DNA of 64,000 bases from Methanosarcina acetivorans C2A. GTDB lineage: Archaea > Halobacteriota > Methanosarcinia > Methanosarcinales > Methanosarcinaceae. The notes under the pieces are model-generated. The model saw only the letters and a list, made by a program, of their open reading frames with translations. It did not search any database and was not told the DNA's origin. Where the stretch lies: contig NC_003552.1 of NCBI RefSeq assembly GCF_000007345.1, forward strand, positions 5,332,001 through 5,396,000. Reading direction: 5' to 3'. Of the stretch, positions 52,583-60,632 are shown one piece after another (position 1 is the stretch's first letter; every line of letters starts with the position of its first letter). The position numbers and the translations under genes were made by a program.

Positions 52583-53317
52583 ACCGCAGCAGGGAAACAA
52601 AAGATAAATCTTCCCGGATCTACGGATATGTTTCAGGAAGGGAAAGCACCGGCACGTGTAAGTATTCAACTCTAGGAATGGAAATAAGTAAGTAGTTGGA
52701 CATCCAGGTACTGGCATGTGTAAGTGCTCAACCTGCAAGGACAGGAGAGGAACTCACCAGGAACTAACGATACCTTAGAAATTTTTTGAGTTTAACTTAA
52801 ATTTCTGACAAAGTAGAAAACCTTAAAACAGCCCTTCCAAAAGTAACCATAATATTAATATTAAACCATTATAATTTAGAGTATTTCGAGGATATTTTTA
52901 TAAATCGGAGAAATAAGAGAGATTTTCTTCAAAAATGAAGAAATAAACCCTTCCATTACTCCGAAATAAGTTACCATCTCTTTTTCAGAGTTTTGTCGAT
53001 TTTTTCCAGATAAAATATATATCACGATTAATAATTATCAATCTGTACAATAAACTTTATAATGTAAACCTATATAATATTAGGGAGTATTAGGCAGAAG
53101 CATTCCCGGGGAAGCAACCCCAGGATTAAATTTACGGTGGAATGTCAATACGATCAATACGAATTATAGAATTAACCCTATCATCTACACAGAGGACAGT
53201 TTCGAAAGTCTCGTTTTAAGCGAAAGAGGGGCTGGAAAGCCAGAACTCTCTACCCGGACTGAAAAACTGTTTTCAGCTTTTTTTAGCTGCCGGATTACGG
53301 TTTGAGGAGTGAATATA
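52583..53317. promoter_or_regulatory. Long leader and promoter region of the hydrogenase-like operon
   Basis: About 735 bases with no gene. A TATA-like CCTATATAATAT lies at 53069-53080, giving a leader of about 210 bases before the first gene. The leader can form small stems (CTGG-AAAG-CCAG near 53232-53243 and CAGCT-TTTTTT-AGCTG near 53274-53289). Two diverged copies of a roughly 30-base word (containing GGCACGTGTAAG / GGCATGTGTAAG) lie at about 52650 and 52712. No known riboswitch recognised. Confidence 0.45.
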
Positions 53318-55255
53318 TTGCTCGAAACCTTAGTGTACGGCGCAATTGCCGCTCTTGTATCCGGAACTGTCCTTCCTCTCCTGTACCGCAGTAAAAACAC
53401 AAGAAAGACTGCTTTTGGCCTTTCTCTTATCTCATCAATCCTGCTCCTGGTTTTTGCAGGTACGGTCCTTTATACAGGGAAAGAGCCCGTATTTCCGGCC
53501 ATCGGATTCCTGCCGGGCCTGGACTTCACCCTGGCTGCAGACCGGCTTTCAGCCGGGTTTATCCTCTTAATTGCAGCAGTCGTGCCCGGAGTTTCAATAT
53601 ATTCGGTCGAATATGTAGAACACGCAAAAAGCGAGGACGGGAAAAACCTGCAGGCAGCCCTGACAAATCTCTTTATCCTTGCCATGCTGATGGTCGTACT
53701 TGCAGGCAATATGGTAGGCTTCCTGATTTTCTGGGAAATAATGTCCCTTTCCTCGCTCCTACTGGTGCTGCATAACTATTCCTCGGAGGAGAACAAAAAA
53801 GCCGGCTTTTTCTACTTCGTGATGACAAATATCAGCACAGCTTTTCTCTTCCTGGGCTTCATAAGCCTCTTCAGGCTTACAGGCTCTACGGAGTTCGGAC
53901 CGCTTGAATACGCTGCAGGTGAGCTGACTCTTCCCTTCCTCTCCCTTTTTGTCGGCTTTGGGGTCAAGGCAGGACTTGTGCCTTTCCACAAGTGGCTGCC
54001 CTATGCCCACCCTGCAGCGCCGTCAAGTGTCTCGGCCCTGATGTCCGGAGTTATGCTGAAGGTTGCAGTCTACGGTTTCCTGCGTTTCCTGCTCTCAATC
54101 TCCACGCCTGAACTCTGGTGGGGAGTGCTTATCCTTACAGCAGGCAGCCTTTCAGCTCTCTTCGGGGTAATTTACGCCCTGAAAGAAAACGACATAAAAA
54201 GGCTCCTTGCCTACAGCAGCATTGAAAACATAGGGATCATTTTCACGGGAATCGGGCTATATGTCATCTTTGGGGTTGAAGGACTTGAAACCCTTGCCCT
54301 GTTAAGCCTTGTAGGAGCCTGTTTCCACTCCTTTAACCATGCCCTCTTCAAAAGCCTGCTTTTCCTCTGTGCAGGCTCGGTGGTTCATGCCACAGGCACA
54401 CGGAAAATCGAAGCCCTCGGGGGACTTGTAAAAAGCATGCCTGCGACCTCAGCCCTTTTCATGATAGGCTCGGTCTCGATTGCAGCCCTGCCCCCAACAA
54501 ACGGTTTTGCCGGCGAGCTCCTGCTCTACCAGGCTTTCTTCCAGTCCTTTGCCGTAACCGACCCCCTTCTTACCGTATTTCTAATAATTGCCCTCTCAAG
54601 CTTTGCTCTGACCGGAGCGCTGGCAGCTGCCCTTTTCGTAAAACTTTTCGGGATCACCTGCCTTGCCATGCCACGTTCGGAAAAGAGCCGCCTTGCAGAA
54701 GAAGTCCGGAAACCCATGCTGATAGGCCCCGCAGTGCCGGCAGCCTTCTGCATACTTGGAGGGCTTTTCTCAAAGCAGCTCCTTTCTCTTGCAGGCTGGA
54801 AGATTGAGTTTCCGGACCTGCTTTTGCTAGGATTTCTACTCGGGTTGATATATGCAGCCCTTTTCGTGCTGATCCGTACCCGTACAAAAGAAACGAACCC
54901 TTCAAGGATCAGCGAGACCTGGAGATGCGGAATTCCGACCGTTGCCCCTTACATGGAATACAGTTCTGCAGGCTTTTCCGAGCCTCTTGTGATGATCTTC
55001 AAAAGCGTTTATAGGACAAAGATCGTGCACAGAGCCGAGTACCTCGACAGGCAGGAAAGTCTCGTTAAGAATGGGAATGTGGAAATCCGCCTGGTCCGCT
55101 TCTTTGAAGAATACCTTTACATCCCTCCTGCACGGGCAATCGAGGGCTTTTCGAAATACGTTTCAAAACTGCAGAACGGAAAACTTGACAGTTACGTCCT
55201 TTACGCCTTTCTGGCAGTCATTGTATTGACAATAGCAACAGGAGGCTTTGTATGA
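53318..55255 (+). CDS. Hydrogenase-4/complex I-like membrane subunit, HyfB/HycC type (NuoL/MrpA family)
   Basis: First gene of a six-gene unit. About 645 residues and fifteen or so membrane helices of the ion-translocating antiporter family. Conserved blocks are present: GFLIFWEIMSLSSLLLVLHNY with the key Glu, FGVKAGLVPFHKWLPYAHPAAPSSVSALMSGVMLKVAVYG (in pieces) with the channel Lys and His, and LLAYSSIENIGII. These channel residues are intact, unlike the redox residues of the peripheral subunits. GTG 53309 is possible, but TTG 53318 has GAGGAG at ideal spacing. The C-terminal hydrophilic part (about 530-620) is typical of HyfB. It ends as GTATGA, overlapping the next gene. Confidence 0.9.
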   Translation: MLETLVYGAIAALVSGTVLPLLYRSKNTRKTAFGLSLISSILLLVFAGTVLYTGKEPVFPAIGFLPGLDFTLAADRLSAGFILLIAAVVPGVSIYSVEYVEHAKSEDGKNLQAALTNLFILAMLMVVLAGNMVGFLIFWEIMSLSSLLLVLHNYSSEENKKAGFFYFVMTNISTAFLFLGFISLFRLTGSTEFGPLEYAAGELTLPFLSLFVGFGVKAGLVPFHKWLPYAHPAAPSSVSALMSGVMLKVAVYGFLRFLLSISTPELWWGVLILTAGSLSALFGVIYALKENDIKRLLAYSSIENIGIIFTGIGLYVIFGVEGLETLALLSLVGACFHSFNHALFKSLLFLCAGSVVHATGTRKIEALGGLVKSMPATSALFMIGSVSIAALPPTNGFAGELLLYQAFFQSFAVTDPLLTVFLIIALSSFALTGALAAALFVKLFGITCLAMPRSEKSRLAEEVRKPMLIGPAVPAAFCILGGLFSKQLLSLAGWKIEFPDLLLLGFLLGLIYAALFVLIRTRTKETNPSRISETWRCGIPTVAPYMEYSSAGFSEPLVMIFKSVYRTKIVHRAEYLDRQESLVKNGNVEIRLVRFFEEYLYIPPARAIEGFSKYVSKLQNGKLDSYVLYAFLAVIVLTIATGGFV

Positions 55256-56193
55256 ACACCTCGTTCCTGCTCTTTGCCCTCTTAAATCCGCTTTTTGCCC
55301 TGCTGGCAGCTCCTCTGTACATGGCTCTGATCCGGAAGGTAAAGGCATATGCCCAGTGGAGAAAAGGCCCGAGGCTCTTTCAGGTCTATTACGACTTAAA
55401 AAAACTCATGCAAAAGGAAGCTGTCTATTCTCCGACTTCGTCATGGGTCATGCGCTTTACCCCATACCTCAACCTTTCGACCCTGCTCGTCTGTTCCCTC
55501 TTCGTACCCCTGATCTTTGTCCCGGAACCTGCAGGAGGGCTCGGAAACATTATTGTCTTCCTGTACCTCCTGGCGCTTGAAAGGTTCTTTACCGCCCTGG
55601 GAGGACTTGACGCCGGGAGTGCTTTCGGAGGCATGGGCAGTTCAAGGTCGATGAGCCTTGCAGCCGTAATCGAACCGACAATGGTGGTCTCTTTTGCAGC
55701 TCTTGCCTTTGTGCTGAAAAGCCTTAACCTGCACCGGATGTTTGCCCTTACTGCAGGCACGGTCCTTCCCATAAGCCCGACCCTTGTCCTGGTCTCAATC
55801 TCGCTTTTCATTATCCTTATAGTGGAAACCGGCAGGCTACCTGTGGACAACCCGGCGACTCACCTTGAACTTACCATGATTAATGAAGCAATGATCCTCG
55901 AACAGACAGGAAAGAACCTTGCCCTGCTGGAACTTGCCCATGCCCTTAAACAGTTCCTGTTGATGGGGATATTGATCAACACGATCCTTCCGGTAGGGCT
56001 CAGCACGGAAATCGATGCCGGAAAAATTGCGGTTTCAGCCCTTCTCTTCCTCCTGAAGGCAGGGCTGCTTGCAGTAATAATCGGGCTCTTTGAATCATCC
56101 GTTGCAAAGATGAGGCTCTTCAGGCTTCCTGCATTTTATGTGATGGCATTTTTCTTTTCAGCCCTTACCATCCTTATCGAGGTGTTTGCATGA
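55252..56193 (+). CDS. Hydrogenase-4/complex I-like membrane subunit, HyfC/HycD type (NuoH family)
   Basis: A 313-residue membrane protein with about eight helices, corresponding to NuoH, which links the peripheral redox arm to the membrane arm. Recognisable blocks: LIRKVKAYAQWRKGPRLFQVYYDLKKLMQKE (in pieces), GGLDAGSAFGGMGSSRSMSLA, and ETGRLPVDNPATHLELTMINEAM. The conserved acidic residues on the peripheral-facing loops (E and D in ETGRLPVDNP and EL..I.EAM) are kept. It overlaps both neighbours by 4 bases, so translation is coupled along the unit. Confidence 0.92.
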   Translation: MNTSFLLFALLNPLFALLAAPLYMALIRKVKAYAQWRKGPRLFQVYYDLKKLMQKEAVYSPTSSWVMRFTPYLNLSTLLVCSLFVPLIFVPEPAGGLGNIIVFLYLLALERFFTALGGLDAGSAFGGMGSSRSMSLAAVIEPTMVVSFAALAFVLKSLNLHRMFALTAGTVLPISPTLVLVSISLFIILIVETGRLPVDNPATHLELTMINEAMILEQTGKNLALLELAHALKQFLLMGILINTILPVGLSTEIDAGKIAVSALLFLLKAGLLAVIIGLFESSVAKMRLFRLPAFYVMAFFFSALTILIEVFA

Positions 56194-56876
56194 TTGACCC
56201 GCTCTTCCTTGAAGGCATAATAAAGATCCTTTTCGTCTTTGTCCTTATCAGTGCAGGGCTGATCATCTCAACCCGCAACCTGAGTTCGGTCCTTACAACT
56301 TATACCGTCCAGTCTTTCCTGCTGGCTGCTGTATCCTTCCTCCTCTACCTGATAGACGGGAAAGGGGAGCTTCTGCTGCTGGCAGGCCTGACCCTGGCAA
56401 GCAAAGTAATCCTGATCCCTTACTTTATCTCCAGGATAGAAGAAAAAATCAAAATCGGAAGAGACCTCCACTTTGCATATCTGGAGCCAACGACCTCCCT
56501 CCTTCTGAGCATAGGGATTATCCTCCTCTCCTATACCTTCCTTTCAAAGGTCTTCGAAGACCTGCCCCTCTCGAAACTCTTCTTCTTCGGGGCTGTTATC
56601 GGGCTTTCCCTGACCCTGATGGGCATGCTTGTGATGTTCAGCAGAAAAAAGGTCGTCACAAAAGCACTTGGCTACCTCAGCATGGAAAACGGAGTCCTGA
56701 TGTTCGGCCTCTTTGTTACCGAACTTCCCTTTATCATCGAAGTCCTGATCATAATCGACCTTATCATCCTGGTCATGCTGACCACGATTCTGGCTGTGGG
56801 GATGGATTCGAGCATTGAGGAGTACCGGCAGAAATTCCGGAAACTGCAGGTCTGGACAGGAGTTGAGTCCCAGTGA
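56190..56876 (+). CDS. Hydrogenase-4 subunit HyfE-like membrane protein (NuoK-related)
   Basis: A 228-residue membrane protein with six or seven helices. The central SAGLIISTRNLSSVLTTYTVQSF and the Glu-containing GYLSMENGVLMFGLF resemble HyfE, which holds a NuoK-like core. The C-terminal tail is hydrophilic (SSIEEYRQKFRKLQVW). HyfE subunits are found in hydrogenase-4 and in Ehr-type complexes but not in the short Ech hydrogenases, which helps place this unit. It overlaps both neighbouring genes by 4 bases. Confidence 0.88.
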   Translation: MIDPLFLEGIIKILFVFVLISAGLIISTRNLSSVLTTYTVQSFLLAAVSFLLYLIDGKGELLLLAGLTLASKVILIPYFISRIEEKIKIGRDLHFAYLEPTTSLLLSIGIILLSYTFLSKVFEDLPLSKLFFFGAVIGLSLTLMGMLVMFSRKKVVTKALGYLSMENGVLMFGLFVTELPFIIEVLIIIDLIILVMLTTILAVGMDSSIEEYRQKFRKLQVWTGVESQ

Positions 56877-58423
56877 TTCGGTATTATCTCCTGGTAATGG
56901 GACTGTTCCTGACACTCGGCCTGATTCCGAAGTCCCACAGGTTAATGAATGCTCTTGCCGCAGGAAACGGCCTCCTGCACCTTGCCATGAGCTGCGTTGC
57001 CCTGCTTATCTTTGACCTGCCCGGAAGGCTCGGAGAAACCCTCTATCTTGACCACCTCAACATTTACGTGGAACTAATAACAGCCCTGGGCTTTTCCGCA
57101 GCGGCCTTCTATGCCAGAGGATATACAGACAGCCTTATGGAAGCCGGAGAGCTTGACCCCAAAAATCTGAAGACCTTCTACCTTGCCTTCAACCTCCTGC
57201 TCATTACAGCCACTGTTGCGCTCTTTTCGGACAATCTGGCGCTATTCTGGATCTTTGCAGAACTCACAACGGTCTGCGCTGCCATGCTTGTTGCAATCCT
57301 TTCTGCGAGGGAGAATATCGATGCCGCCTTAAAGTACGTCTTCATAGTCTCCGGATCCATGCTCTTTGCTTTCCTCGGGCTGATTTTCCTCTTCACCCTC
57401 TCGGAACAGGCCCTAGGGGAAGGTACCCTTGACTGGACGGAGCTGGCAGTCCATGCCTCGGAGTTTTCACCTGCCCTCCTCCTTGCAAGCTTTAGCTTCA
57501 TGTTCATAGGCTTCGGGGCAAAAGCAGGAGTGGCTCCTTTCCACACCTGGCTCCCGGACGCCTATGCAAGAGCTCCATCGGTTAGTGCAATTCTCTCAGG
57601 GCTGATGCAGAACCTGGGGATCTACGGCATAATAAGGATATACGCCCTGCTCAAGGAAAACGGTGCTGCCTCCCAGGCATCTTTGATCCTGATAGCAGCC
57701 GGGGTTTTCTCAATTGCACTTGCGTCCTTCAGCATGTTCCAGCAGAGGAACTTAAAGCGACTGATAGCCTTTTCAAGCGTTGAGCACATGGGTCTGCTCC
57801 TCATAGGGATAGGGATAGGGACGCCTCTTGCCCTTTTCTGGACTTTGTTTTACATGCTCGTCCATGTCCTAGTAAAGGAAACTCTCCTGTTTTCCGCAGG
57901 CATCCTGCACAGGCAGTACAGGAGCAACATGCGCGAAGACATGAAAGACGTCTTTAAACTCCAGCCAAGAGCTGCCTGGGGCCTTATCCTCGGGAGCATT
58001 GCAATCATAGGAATGCCGCCTTTCCCCCTCTTTCCGGCAAAATTCTTCATCCTGCTGGAAAGCGCGGAGATTTCGCCCTACCTGACCCTTGCGGTGCTGC
58101 TGATGCTCATCCTTGCAGCCGCTTCCTTTGCAAACTTCCTCCTGAAAGCTTTCTCAAAGGTGACTATCGAGGGAGAAAATAGAAAAGAAGAGCACAGCCA
58201 CACAACAGGGGCTCCTGAAGGAAAAGGAGGAGCCGTAAAGGAAAGCTCCGCAGGAAAAGCAGGAAATGAGGAAAGAAGGCTTCCAACCAGGTATATGGTG
58301 AGGGAAGGGATGAGGGTCCCGGTGGTTTTCATGCTGGCTCTGGCCCTTGTCCTCGGCTTCTATTTCCCGGACGCGCTTAAGAACCTGCTTGATGCGATAA
58401 TTCTTGAACTCGGGTATGTGTAA
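56873..58423 (+). CDS. Hydrogenase-4/complex I-like membrane subunit, HyfF type (NuoN/NuoM family)
   Basis: Second antiporter-like subunit, 516 residues and about fourteen helices. Conserved blocks: LALFWIFAELTTVCAAMLVAI with the membrane Glu, FGAKAGVAPFHTWLPDAYARAPSVSAILSGLMQNLGIYG (in pieces) with Lys and His, and LIAFSSVEHMGLLLIG. The second channel Lys of many NuoN/NuoM proteins is Gln/Asn here (LMQNLG), as in several HyfF proteins. A hydrophilic insertion of about 45 residues with a His-rich start (EEHSHTTGAPEGKGG) interrupts the last helices at about 433-478. The start is GTG 56873, overlapping the previous stop. Confidence 0.9.
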   Translation: MIRYYLLVMGLFLTLGLIPKSHRLMNALAAGNGLLHLAMSCVALLIFDLPGRLGETLYLDHLNIYVELITALGFSAAAFYARGYTDSLMEAGELDPKNLKTFYLAFNLLLITATVALFSDNLALFWIFAELTTVCAAMLVAILSARENIDAALKYVFIVSGSMLFAFLGLIFLFTLSEQALGEGTLDWTELAVHASEFSPALLLASFSFMFIGFGAKAGVAPFHTWLPDAYARAPSVSAILSGLMQNLGIYGIIRIYALLKENGAASQASLILIAAGVFSIALASFSMFQQRNLKRLIAFSSVEHMGLLLIGIGIGTPLALFWTLFYMLVHVLVKETLLFSAGILHRQYRSNMREDMKDVFKLQPRAAWGLILGSIAIIGMPPFPLFPAKFFILLESAEISPYLTLAVLLMLILAAASFANFLLKAFSKVTIEGENRKEEHSHTTGAPEGKGGAVKESSAGKAGNEERRLPTRYMVREGMRVPVVFMLALALVLGFYFPDALKNLLDAIILELGYV

Positions 58424-58435
58424 GGAGCGGTAGAT

Positions 58436-60073
58436 ATGGATGTCAAAATGAATGAGGATACAAAGGAATTGCTTTCAACGATTTCGGGCATTGCGGAAGA
58501 AGAGCCCGAACTGCTCAGTGCCCGGGAAAACGAAATATACCTGAAAATTTCGGAAGCAGGGTTTGAAGATATAACCCCTGCACTTGCGGAAAGGAAGTTC
58601 AGCCTAATAGGCCTCTTCTGTGCGGAAGTTTTTGAAAATACTGACGGTTTTACTCTCTTTTATGCTTTCAAACAGGCAGGAAAAGCCTCTGTCCTTGTAC
58701 TTGTCCGGGAGCCGGGAAAAGAAAAAAGAGTCAGCTCGGTTGCAGGAATTTTCCCTTCAGCCTCCTGGTTTGAGCGGGAAATAAGGGACGGATTCGGGCT
58801 GGACTTCGCCGGAGCCCTTGATAATAGAAGACTTTTCCTGCACGAGTGCTATCACGAAGGTTTCCATCCCCTGCAAAAGGCTTTCAAAAACGGGCCGGTT
58901 CATCCGGTTGAAACTCCTAGCAAGGAATACAAATTCAGACAGGTTAAAGGCGAAGGTGTGTACCAGATCCCTGTCGGGCCCGTGCATGCCGGAATAATCG
59001 AACCCGGGCATTTCAGATTCAGCGTGATAGGAGAGCCCATATTCAGCCTTGAAATCCGGCTTTTTTACAAGCACAGGGGCATAGAAAAACTGGCTGAAGG
59101 AAAAAGCCCCTCGGAATGCGTCGCTCTTGCCGAAGCCGTGAGCGGGGATGAGAGCATGGCAAATGCAACAGGGTTCTGCATGGCAGTGGAGCAGGCCTGC
59201 GGAATAAGCGTGCCTGAAAGGGCTGAACGCTTGCGAGCAATAATGCTTGAGCTCGAACGTATCTATTCCCTGTTAGGAGACCTTGCCGGAATGGCTGTTG
59301 ATGTTGGTTTCGCGCTTGTTGCAAGCCCCTTCTCCATATTGAGGGAAGAGGTATTCAGGCAGAACGAAAAACTGACCGGCTCAAGATTCCTGCGCGGGAT
59401 TACCGTTTTAGGAGGGCTGAAAAAAGATATTCCCGATTCGGCTTTGAAAGAGCTTCCAGCCTTCCTTGAGAAATTTTCGCGGGCATTTGAATCGGCTTAT
59501 GACAGAGCGATGTCTTCATCTTCCCTTATCGACAGGTTTGCAACGACAGGTGTGATAAAAAAGGAACTTGTCTCCCCACTTAACCTTACAGGTCCCCTTG
59601 CCAGGGCTTCAGGCTGCCCTGCCGACACCCGGATTGACAGGCCCTATGGAGCCTACAGGGACTTTGCCCCGGAACCTTCAGTCAGGAAAAGAGGGGATGT
59701 GCTCTCACGCTTTGAGATAAAAGCCGATGAGATCCGGGCATCAGTGAACCTGATCCTTCGACTTACAGAAAACCTTCCGCAGGAACCCGTATTTGCTGAA
59801 AACAGGGAGGAAGCTGAAAATATAGGGCAGAACTCAGGGAAAAACGGCAGCTCAGGAGTCACAGGATATTCACTTGCCCTCGTAGAAGCTGCGAGAGGAC
59901 AGAACCTGCACTGGGTCTACCTGAAAAACGGGCTTATTGACAGGTATAAGGTCAGGACCGCATCTTACTGCAACTGGCAGGCTATAGAACATGCAGTAAT
60001 CGGAAACATTGTTCCTGATTTCCCCCTGATAAACAAGAGCCTTAACCTTTCATACGCTGGGACCGACCTTTGA
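58436..60073 (+). CDS. Hydrogenase large-subunit-like protein (HyfG/HycE, NuoCD fusion) lacking both [NiFe] cysteine pairs
   Basis: A 545-residue peripheral subunit. Residues about 1-160 are NuoC-like (ASWFEREIRDGFGLDF); about 175-545 are NuoD/hydrogenase large-subunit-like (VGPVHAGIIEPGHFRF, EIRLFYKHRGIEKL). In [NiFe] hydrogenases the first cysteine pair sits in RICGxC-type sequence; here the site reads AVSGDESMANATGFC (SGDES about 236-240) with no CxxC. The second pair should be DPCxxC near the C-terminus; here the protein ends SLNLSYAGTDL. No [NiFe] site can form. This is the defining trait of energy-converting-hydrogenase-related (Ehr) complexes. It starts 12 bases after the previous gene, with AAGGAG. 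Confidence 0.92.
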   Translation: MDVKMNEDTKELLSTISGIAEEEPELLSARENEIYLKISEAGFEDITPALAERKFSLIGLFCAEVFENTDGFTLFYAFKQAGKASVLVLVREPGKEKRVSSVAGIFPSASWFEREIRDGFGLDFAGALDNRRLFLHECYHEGFHPLQKAFKNGPVHPVETPSKEYKFRQVKGEGVYQIPVGPVHAGIIEPGHFRFSVIGEPIFSLEIRLFYKHRGIEKLAEGKSPSECVALAEAVSGDESMANATGFCMAVEQACGISVPERAERLRAIMLELERIYSLLGDLAGMAVDVGFALVASPFSILREEVFRQNEKLTGSRFLRGITVLGGLKKDIPDSALKELPAFLEKFSRAFESAYDRAMSSSSLIDRFATTGVIKKELVSPLNLTGPLARASGCPADTRIDRPYGAYRDFAPEPSVRKRGDVLSRFEIKADEIRASVNLILRLTENLPQEPVFAENREEAENIGQNSGKNGSSGVTGYSLALVEAARGQNLHWVYLKNGLIDRYKVRTASYCNWQAIEHAVIGNIVPDFPLINKSLNLSYAGTDL

Positions 60074-60119
60074 ACCAGGAGTAATAAAGAGTAATAAAGA
60101 AACACATTGAGGTCTGATT

Positions 60120-60632
60120 ATGGTAAACCCTCTTTCCCTCTTTCTCCGCCCTAAAGTTACGGAGACCTTTAAATTCCGGGATGAAGAACTCGAAGCACTT
60201 GGAGAAGAAATCAAAAAAGAGATCCCGAAAGTTTTCGGGCACAGCCTTGCCATCCGCGAACTGGATTCAGGCAGTGACAACTCCACCGAGATTGAGATCT
60301 CAAACCTCGGGAACCCTCATTATGATGTTGAGAGGTTCGGGATCTCTTTTGTGGCTTCCCCGAGGCATGCTGACATCCTGCTAGTAACAGGAGCTGTCAC
60401 CCTTAACATGGCGGAAGCCGTGAAAAAAACCTATGAAGCCATGCCCTCCCCTAAGTTTGTGGTAGCAGTCGGAGACGACGCTTGTGACGGCGGGATTTAT
60501 AAGGATTCTTATGCCGTACTCAGCGGGGTTGACAAAATCCTGCCCGTGGATATGAAAATTCCCGGGAACCCGCCCTCTCCGAAAGAGATTTTGAAAGGGA
60601 TTTTAGCCCTTGTAAAAAAAGCCTCTAAATAA
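60120..60632 (+). CDS. Hydrogenase small-subunit-like protein (HyfI/HycG, NuoB family) lacking all iron-sulfur ligands
   Basis: A 170-residue NuoB-fold protein, clearly homologous over its length: FVASPRHADILLVTGAVTLNM, VVAVGDDACDGG and MKIPGNPPSP. The four cysteines that bind the proximal [4Fe-4S] cluster are all changed. GSCNGCEIEI-type sequence is GSDNSTEIEI (Asp53, Thr56), the GDC Cys is Asp120 (with a Cys two positions later at 122), and PGCPPSP is PGNPPSP (Asn150). No cluster could be held in the usual way. The gene follows the large-subunit gene by 46 bases and is followed by a hairpin terminator, so it ends the operon. Confidence 0.92.
   Translation: MVNPLSLFLRPKVTETFKFRDEELEALGEEIKKEIPKVFGHSLAIRELDSGSDNSTEIEISNLGNPHYDVERFGISFVASPRHADILLVTGAVTLNMAEAVKKTYEAMPSPKFVVAVGDDACDGGIYKDSYAVLSGVDKILPVDMKIPGNPPSPKEILKGILALVKKASK

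Follow-up and report, generated by a model that had tools for sequence, protein, structure and literature searches.

A complex I-like operon of Methanosarcina acetivorans without ligands for redox metal sites: a putative redox-free relative of the Ehr complexes

In complex I, redox chemistry and ion pumping are coupled although they take place far apart, and the mechanism of this coupling is still disputed. What would such a machine do if its redox centers were gone but its ion path were kept? This question is raised by an operon of six + strand genes in Methanosarcina acetivorans C2A, located at 53309-60632 of the window, i.e., the 64,000-nucleotide stretch of contig NC_003552.1 analyzed here. 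An initial annotation had described its products as HyfB-, HyfC-, HyfE-, HyfF-, HyfG- and HyfI-like subunits (hereafter B, C, E, F, G and I) resembling energy-converting-hydrogenase-related (Ehr) complexes, with the cluster of the small subunit lost as well and no redox center visible. This core reading survived our tests. We favor, with a probability of roughly 0.6, that the complex descends from Ehr complexes and is a machine without redox chemistry that draws on coupling to the ion-motive force; it would probably serve to move ions or a small solute without moving electrons.

Ligand positions were read by alignment to HycE (7z0s_E), MbhL, Nqo4, MbhJ (6cfw_J) and cysteine-bearing relatives. 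As the initial annotation had claimed, the large subunit G lacks both [NiFe] cysteine pairs, carrying SGDE and SYAG in their place, and the small subunit I lacks all four cluster ligands, which are replaced by D53, T56, D120 and N150 (Table 1). The comparison with Mbh, Hyf-type and Ehr relatives that it had proposed found every ligand position replaced, and the six metal-site positions are altered in all orthologs. Hence, neither the two CxxC pairs of a [NiFe] group 4 hydrogenase nor the proximal [4Fe-4S] cluster ligands of its small subunit are present. I contains a single cysteine, C122, and none of the seven cysteines of G stands in a CxxC motif. The ferredoxin-like subunit is missing as predicted: in the Methanosarcina loci, no open reading frame (ORF) with a CxxCxxCxxxC signature was found in the region of the operon, and a ferredoxin gene hidden within the operon can thus be rejected. 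Because cofactor ligands are absent, electron transfer through G and I appears unlikely.

G and I are confidently predicted to keep the folds of Mbh, formate hydrogenlyase and complex I. The AlphaFold model of I (predicted local distance difference test, pLDDT, 93.2) lies 1.8 Å from MbhJ across 133 columns, and that of G (pLDDT 90.7) has HycE as its top match (TM-score 0.89/0.91). Such folds might still house a redox enzyme whose lost centers are replaced by a flavin, by a mononuclear metal, or by a cluster that an unlinked partner supplies. C122 of I is invariant in the clade of the window's operon (58/58 rows; row counts include some duplicate loci) and stands beside the conserved D53, D/E120 and N/D150, with which it could form a mononuclear site. 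However, this quartet is missing in the Patescibacteria-type and Micrarchaeota forms described below, Pfam revealed neither a flavin nor a ferredoxin family among the six proteins, no redox partner gene is conserved, and no electron-input gene in or beside the operon is common to all lineages. We therefore regard a redox enzyme as improbable; a non-cysteine metal or flavin site would be its main form.

The membrane arm presents the opposite picture. As the initial annotation had held, the antiporter-type Lys, Glu and His residues of the membrane subunits are kept: in B and F these residues, and in C the interface Glu, show little or no variation across 42-44 rows of the window's clade, and likewise in the other groups. 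One refinement concerns F, which carries N247 in transmembrane helix (TM) 8 where many antiporter subunits have Lys; cysteine-bearing Ehr complexes, too, most often have Asn at this position. Such conservation of the membrane arm speaks for the transport of ions, coupled to some event at the G/I pocket. Only a few positions of I are fixed differently from cysteine-bearing Ehr (D53, N62, D120, K146 and N150); in G they include E239, at a former [NiFe] ligand position, and a His to Asn243 exchange, in E Gln became Lys158, and F features Lys390, which by its motif would occupy the position of NuoM Glu407. In Escherichia coli, NuoM E407K assembles and pumps, at lower stoichiometry (PMC9271201). 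The substitution pattern suggests a rebuilt pocket and an adjusted membrane arm rather than relaxed constraint. Since clade-specific changes occur both in the pocket and in F, and the F tree gives the same clade, the complex is inherited as a unit.

Table 1. Genes of the operon and diagnostic positions in their products (window coordinates).
Feature	Position	Strand	Remark
B subunit, HyfB/HycC/NuoL-like antiporter-type membrane protein, 648 aa	53309-55255	+	GTG start
C subunit, HyfC/HycD/NuoH-like, 313 aa, joins membrane and peripheral arms	55252-56193	+	family NADHdh
E subunit, HyfE-like membrane protein, 228 aa	56190-56876	+	hydrogenase-4 membrane subunit model, below model cut-off
F subunit, HyfF/NuoM/N-like antiporter-type membrane protein, 516 aa	56873-58423	+	Proton_antipo_M
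F Lys390	58040-58042	+	TM12; Lys in 42/44 clade rows, Glu in 64/66 cysteine-bearing Ehr rows
G subunit, HyfG/HycE-like large subunit, 545 aa	58436-60073	+	Complex1_30kDa and 49kDa fused
G Ser236-Gly-Asp-Glu239 instead of first [NiFe] CxxC	59141-59152	+	alignment
G Ser539-Tyr-Ala-Gly542 instead of second [NiFe] CxxC	60050-60061	+	alignment; protein ends three residues on
I subunit, HyfI/HycG/MbhJ/NuoB-like small subunit, 170 aa	60120-60632	+	Oxidored_q6
I Asp53 at cluster ligand Cys 1	60276-60278	+	alignment
I Thr56 at cluster ligand Cys 2	60285-60287	+	alignment; T/A/V/P across clade
I Asp120 at cluster ligand Cys 3	60477-60479	+	alignment; Asp or Glu across clade
I Asn150 at cluster ligand Cys 4	60567-60569	+	alignment; Asn or Asp across clade

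From these features a mechanism may be sketched. A six-subunit complex of Ehr descent would have abandoned electron transfer, and if its subunits assemble like their relatives, B, C, E and F would provide a complex I-type path for protons or sodium. The pocket that once held the redox center at the boundary of G and I may have turned into a polar, carboxylate-rich site, provided that D53, D120 and N150 of I and E239 and N243 of G do share one pocket. The C/G/I junction would couple ion flow, presumably down the membrane potential, to a conformational change or an acid-base reaction at this pocket. The outcome would be a redox-free transporter or a vectorial enzyme, in principle like DAB2 (DabA/DabB).

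Is this loss a local accident? Relatives were gathered by a genome-collection scan and by phylum searches, and their ligand positions were read from alignments; the assignment of single loci to metagenome-assembled genomes (MAGs) depends on others' binning. A loss confined to one lineage was rejected, as it is found in several archaeal and bacterial groups and in three kinds. In the window's clade, D53 is combined with T/A/V/P at 56, D/E at 120 and N/D at 150; members are Methanosarcinaceae, Methanoregula and other Halobacteriota, an Altiarchaeales MAG, a Dehalococcoidales MAG and further Chloroflexota (1.4-2.1 Mb), with two Micrarchaeota (PVGN, SVGN) as sister on the tree. Patescibacteria-type genomes show a second kind (TCDD, TEGD and variants), with matches in 9/380 genomes. 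Thirdly, Chloroflexota complexes (L260-L263, L271) have kept the [NiFe] cysteines and not the small-subunit ligands. The other Ehr complexes sampled, Methanoperedens included, retain four small-subunit cysteines.

The G tree supports the window's clade with a Shimodaira-Hasegawa-like approximate likelihood ratio test (SH-aLRT) value of 99, and 96 if the Micrarchaeota are included, and the losses require three changes. A common origin of the first two kinds is not rejected by the approximately unbiased (AU) test (p 0.256); a single origin of all Ehr-type ligand losses is not favored by the best tree, but neither is it rejected. The F tree recovers the window's clade with a support of 100. Direct descent from a Methanoperedens-type Ehr, first suggested by pairwise comparison within the order, receives no support from the tree.

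Some of these loci have peculiarities of their own. The group 4-type hydrogenases of L260, L261, L262, L263 and L271 retain both [NiFe] CxxC pairs, and their small subunit carries a fused ferredoxin domain, but three or four proximal-cluster ligands are missing (DADD, DCED, DCES); a hydrogenase without a proximal cluster would be odd. In the Altiarchaeales locus, the first operon is followed, about 3.7 kb downstream, by a second B-C-E-F membrane-arm set (L111:14817-19522). Two tandem B-type antiporter genes occur in Ehr operons of a Methanoperedens-type genome and of another family of the same order (L100:637-4774 and L102:713-4903).

Within Methanosarcina, the small subunit was found in 19 of 31 genomes (the window's counted, and one fragmentary assembly with a stop), with 82-95% identity where complete, and the 18 loci compared have identical gene order and mostly shared flanks. 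The operon might nevertheless be decaying and non-functional, given that 12/31 genomes lack it, frames are shifted in two incomplete assemblies (L054, L056), and a genome without the operon holds a 32-residue remnant of I between conserved flanking genes (L057:9007-9102), which indicates that the operon can be lost. Against this, median Nei-Gojobori ratios of nonsynonymous to synonymous substitution (dN/dS), which the initial annotation had called for across the genus, lie at 0.05-0.12 across the six genes, the small subunit having 0.06-0.08, and resemble those of two neighboring genes. This speaks for purifying selection; frames are intact in most orthologs, and the same replacements are fixed in several phyla. 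We therefore reject decay and give it next to no weight. Cysteine-bearing close relatives next to a decaying copy, which the initial annotation had named as fatal to its reading, were not encountered: the cysteine-bearing relatives form separate clades, the copy is under purifying selection, and its replacements are fixed across genera and phyla.

The gene neighborhood offers leads rather than proof as to what is coupled to the ion flow. Outside the six genes, no partner recurring in all lineages was found. One form of the favored machine is vectorial carbon handling: in a DAB2-like way, the ion-motive force would be used at the G/I pocket to hydrate CO2 and accumulate bicarbonate, or else to move formate. 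Of 20 cluster-less 20-kb loci, 5 have a beta-carbonic anhydrase homolog at a distance of up to about 1.3 kb, in different layouts, versus 0 of 36 cysteine-bearing loci (Fisher p 0.004, a value that ignores kinship and the unequal sampling of the loci), and formate dehydrogenase and FdhC homologs flank the operon in two genera. However, one of the anhydrase neighbors is frameshifted, all come from Methanomicrobia-type genomes, and none was found beside the operon of M. acetivorans; they may also belong with the formate genes. This form hence seems doubtful to us. The Ehr of Geobacter, which may or may not carry the small-subunit cluster, is abundant on formate (PMC7894505).

Two further observations touch on carbonic anhydrases. 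In one of the Micrarchaeota, related proteins flanking the operon (L138:2362-3582 and L138:10979-12235) carry a GC[AS]DAR motif that resembles the Cys-x-Asp-x-Arg of beta-carbonic anhydrase, without a Pfam anhydrase match. In a Patescibacteria-type locus, the gene just upstream of the small subunit (L265:12840-13427) shows a CxDxR...HxxC pattern like the beta-carbonic anhydrase zinc site, likewise without a Pfam match.

Alternatively, the favored machine might be a cation/proton antiporter of the Mrp kind, in which the G/I arm persists as a remnant with a structural or gating role. The solved Mrp A and D subunits are relatives of B and F, the antiporter residues are retained, and ATP synthase beta homologs lie near the operon in two Patescibacteria-type subgroups. 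But the peripheral arm is conserved as strongly as the membrane arm, which would be needless for a mere remnant, and the operon is devoid of Mrp-specific small subunits. We consider such an antiporter a tentative possibility, somewhat better placed than carbon handling. Ion antiport and the handling of inorganic carbon or formate are thus the leading specific forms of the redox-free machine.

A FilR1/Msr-type regulator and a histidine-kinase locus lie downstream of the operon in Methanosarcina, and the complex I fold might act as a conformational switch in a sensor or regulator. This arrangement is limited to Methanosarcinaceae, and conservation of the proton path would be needless, which makes such a role very improbable. 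Among the functions proposed by the initial annotation (ion channel, conformational motor, regulator), the evidence favors a machine coupled to the ion-motive force. Near-invariance of the proton-path residues and the lack of a conserved partner gene make a pure regulator less likely, and a plain passive channel is unlikely because the entire peripheral arm is conserved.

Several points weigh against the redox-free machine as well. A non-cysteine cofactor such as a flavin or mononuclear metal is compatible with the sequence, no partner gene or phenotype was found that would fix the coupled reaction, and the loss of the operon from about one-third of the Methanosarcina genomes indicates a dispensable function. 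We would give about even odds to the more explicit claim that a complete complex I-type machine operates in several phyla without electron transfer, its carboxylate-rich ex-redox site now accommodating a ligand or a reaction of another type (CO2/bicarbonate and formate being possible candidates) that is coupled to ion flow through the intact membrane arm. If true, the complex I problem could be split by means of a naturally occurring relative that has the whole coupling apparatus and lacks redox chemistry, and the membrane arm could be studied without electron transfer.

The coupled HyfB/C/E/F/G/I-like gene set proposed by the initial annotation is confirmed by ORFs and by Pfam and NCBIfam assignments, the genes overlapping or being closely spaced, mostly with overlapping stop and start codons. 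Its proposed start at 53318 is an in-frame TTG and gives way to the GTG of B. B matches NCBIfam NF006418 with 1066.8 bits (cut-off 794) and Pfam Proton_antipo_M, and HycC (7z0s_C) is its closest solved structure. C is related to the solved HycD (7z0s_D) and MbhM (6cfw_M), whereas E has no relative among solved-structure sequences at an expectation value of 1. F scores 792.1 bits with NF006427 (cut-off 511) and has solved relatives in Mbs/Mbh antiporter subunits. Locus tags MA4368-MA4373 were assigned by counting genes from MA4376/MA4377 (PMC11784639) and not by record; B is probably MA4368. Named 'NADH dehydrogenase subunit N', MA4368 is among the transcripts lowered on HdrED repression (PMC11619418), and at least this gene is thus expressed. 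The 5' leader of the operon (53055-53308) is conserved among Methanosarcina species and partly into a neighboring genus, with a sharp block ACGGTGGAATG...TCAATACGA; it matched no Rfam family at the gathering score.

We found no earlier report of a cluster-less Ehr or of the combined ligand loss in open-access full texts, which include neither the reference paper on Ehr of 2013 nor the bulk of the subscription literature. By descent the complex is a variant of Ehr; by mechanism it could be a new category. Annotations would need correction, as NF006418 and NF006427 label these subunits 'hydrogenase membrane subunit'. Judging from matching annotation names, the Dehalococcoides Hyc complex, listed in papers as a [NiFe] hydrogenase, is probably of the same redox-free kind.

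How does the complex compare with known systems? As the initial annotation had stated, Ehr complexes, e.g., of Nitrospira and Geobacter, have lost the residues coordinating Ni and Fe (PMC6349859, PMC10284858). The Methanosarcina complex shares this loss of both [NiFe] CxxC pairs as well as the six-subunit group 4 hydrogenase/complex I-like set with antiporter-type subunits, of the same types and mostly in the same gene order. It differs from the sampled Ehr complexes in the four small-subunit cysteines that these retain, a trait not stated as defining in PMC6349859 and PMC10284858. Methanoperedens-type Ehr differ further by a ferredoxin-signature ORF between G and I or fused to I. Hyc/Hyf (formate hydrogenlyase, hydrogenase-4) and Mbh provide the closest solved structures for each matching subunit, and G and I are predicted to fold alike; in contrast to them, the Methanosarcina complex has no [NiFe] ligands, cluster ligands or ferredoxin subunits. 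With complex I (Nuo, Fpo) it shares a homologous membrane arm and Q-module core (NuoB, C, D, H and L/M/N types) but not the N2 cluster ligands, the N-module or the F420 module. The G position that we take to align with the quinone-site Tyr of complex I is Gly, as in hydrogenases.

Mrp antiporters have homologous antiporter-type subunits and likewise no redox center; however, they are not known to possess a G/I-type peripheral arm or a NuoH-like subunit, and the operon holds the six Ehr-type genes only and not the MrpA-G set. In DAB2, the cytoplasmic part is beta-carbonic-anhydrase-like and unrelated to G/I, and a DabA-type subunit (PF10070) was not among the six operon proteins in Pfam. DAB2 serves as a precedent in that a NuoL-type subunit powers chemistry by the membrane potential without redox (PMC13144422), and the Methanosarcina complex would likewise combine a NuoL-type membrane subunit with the absence of redox chemistry.

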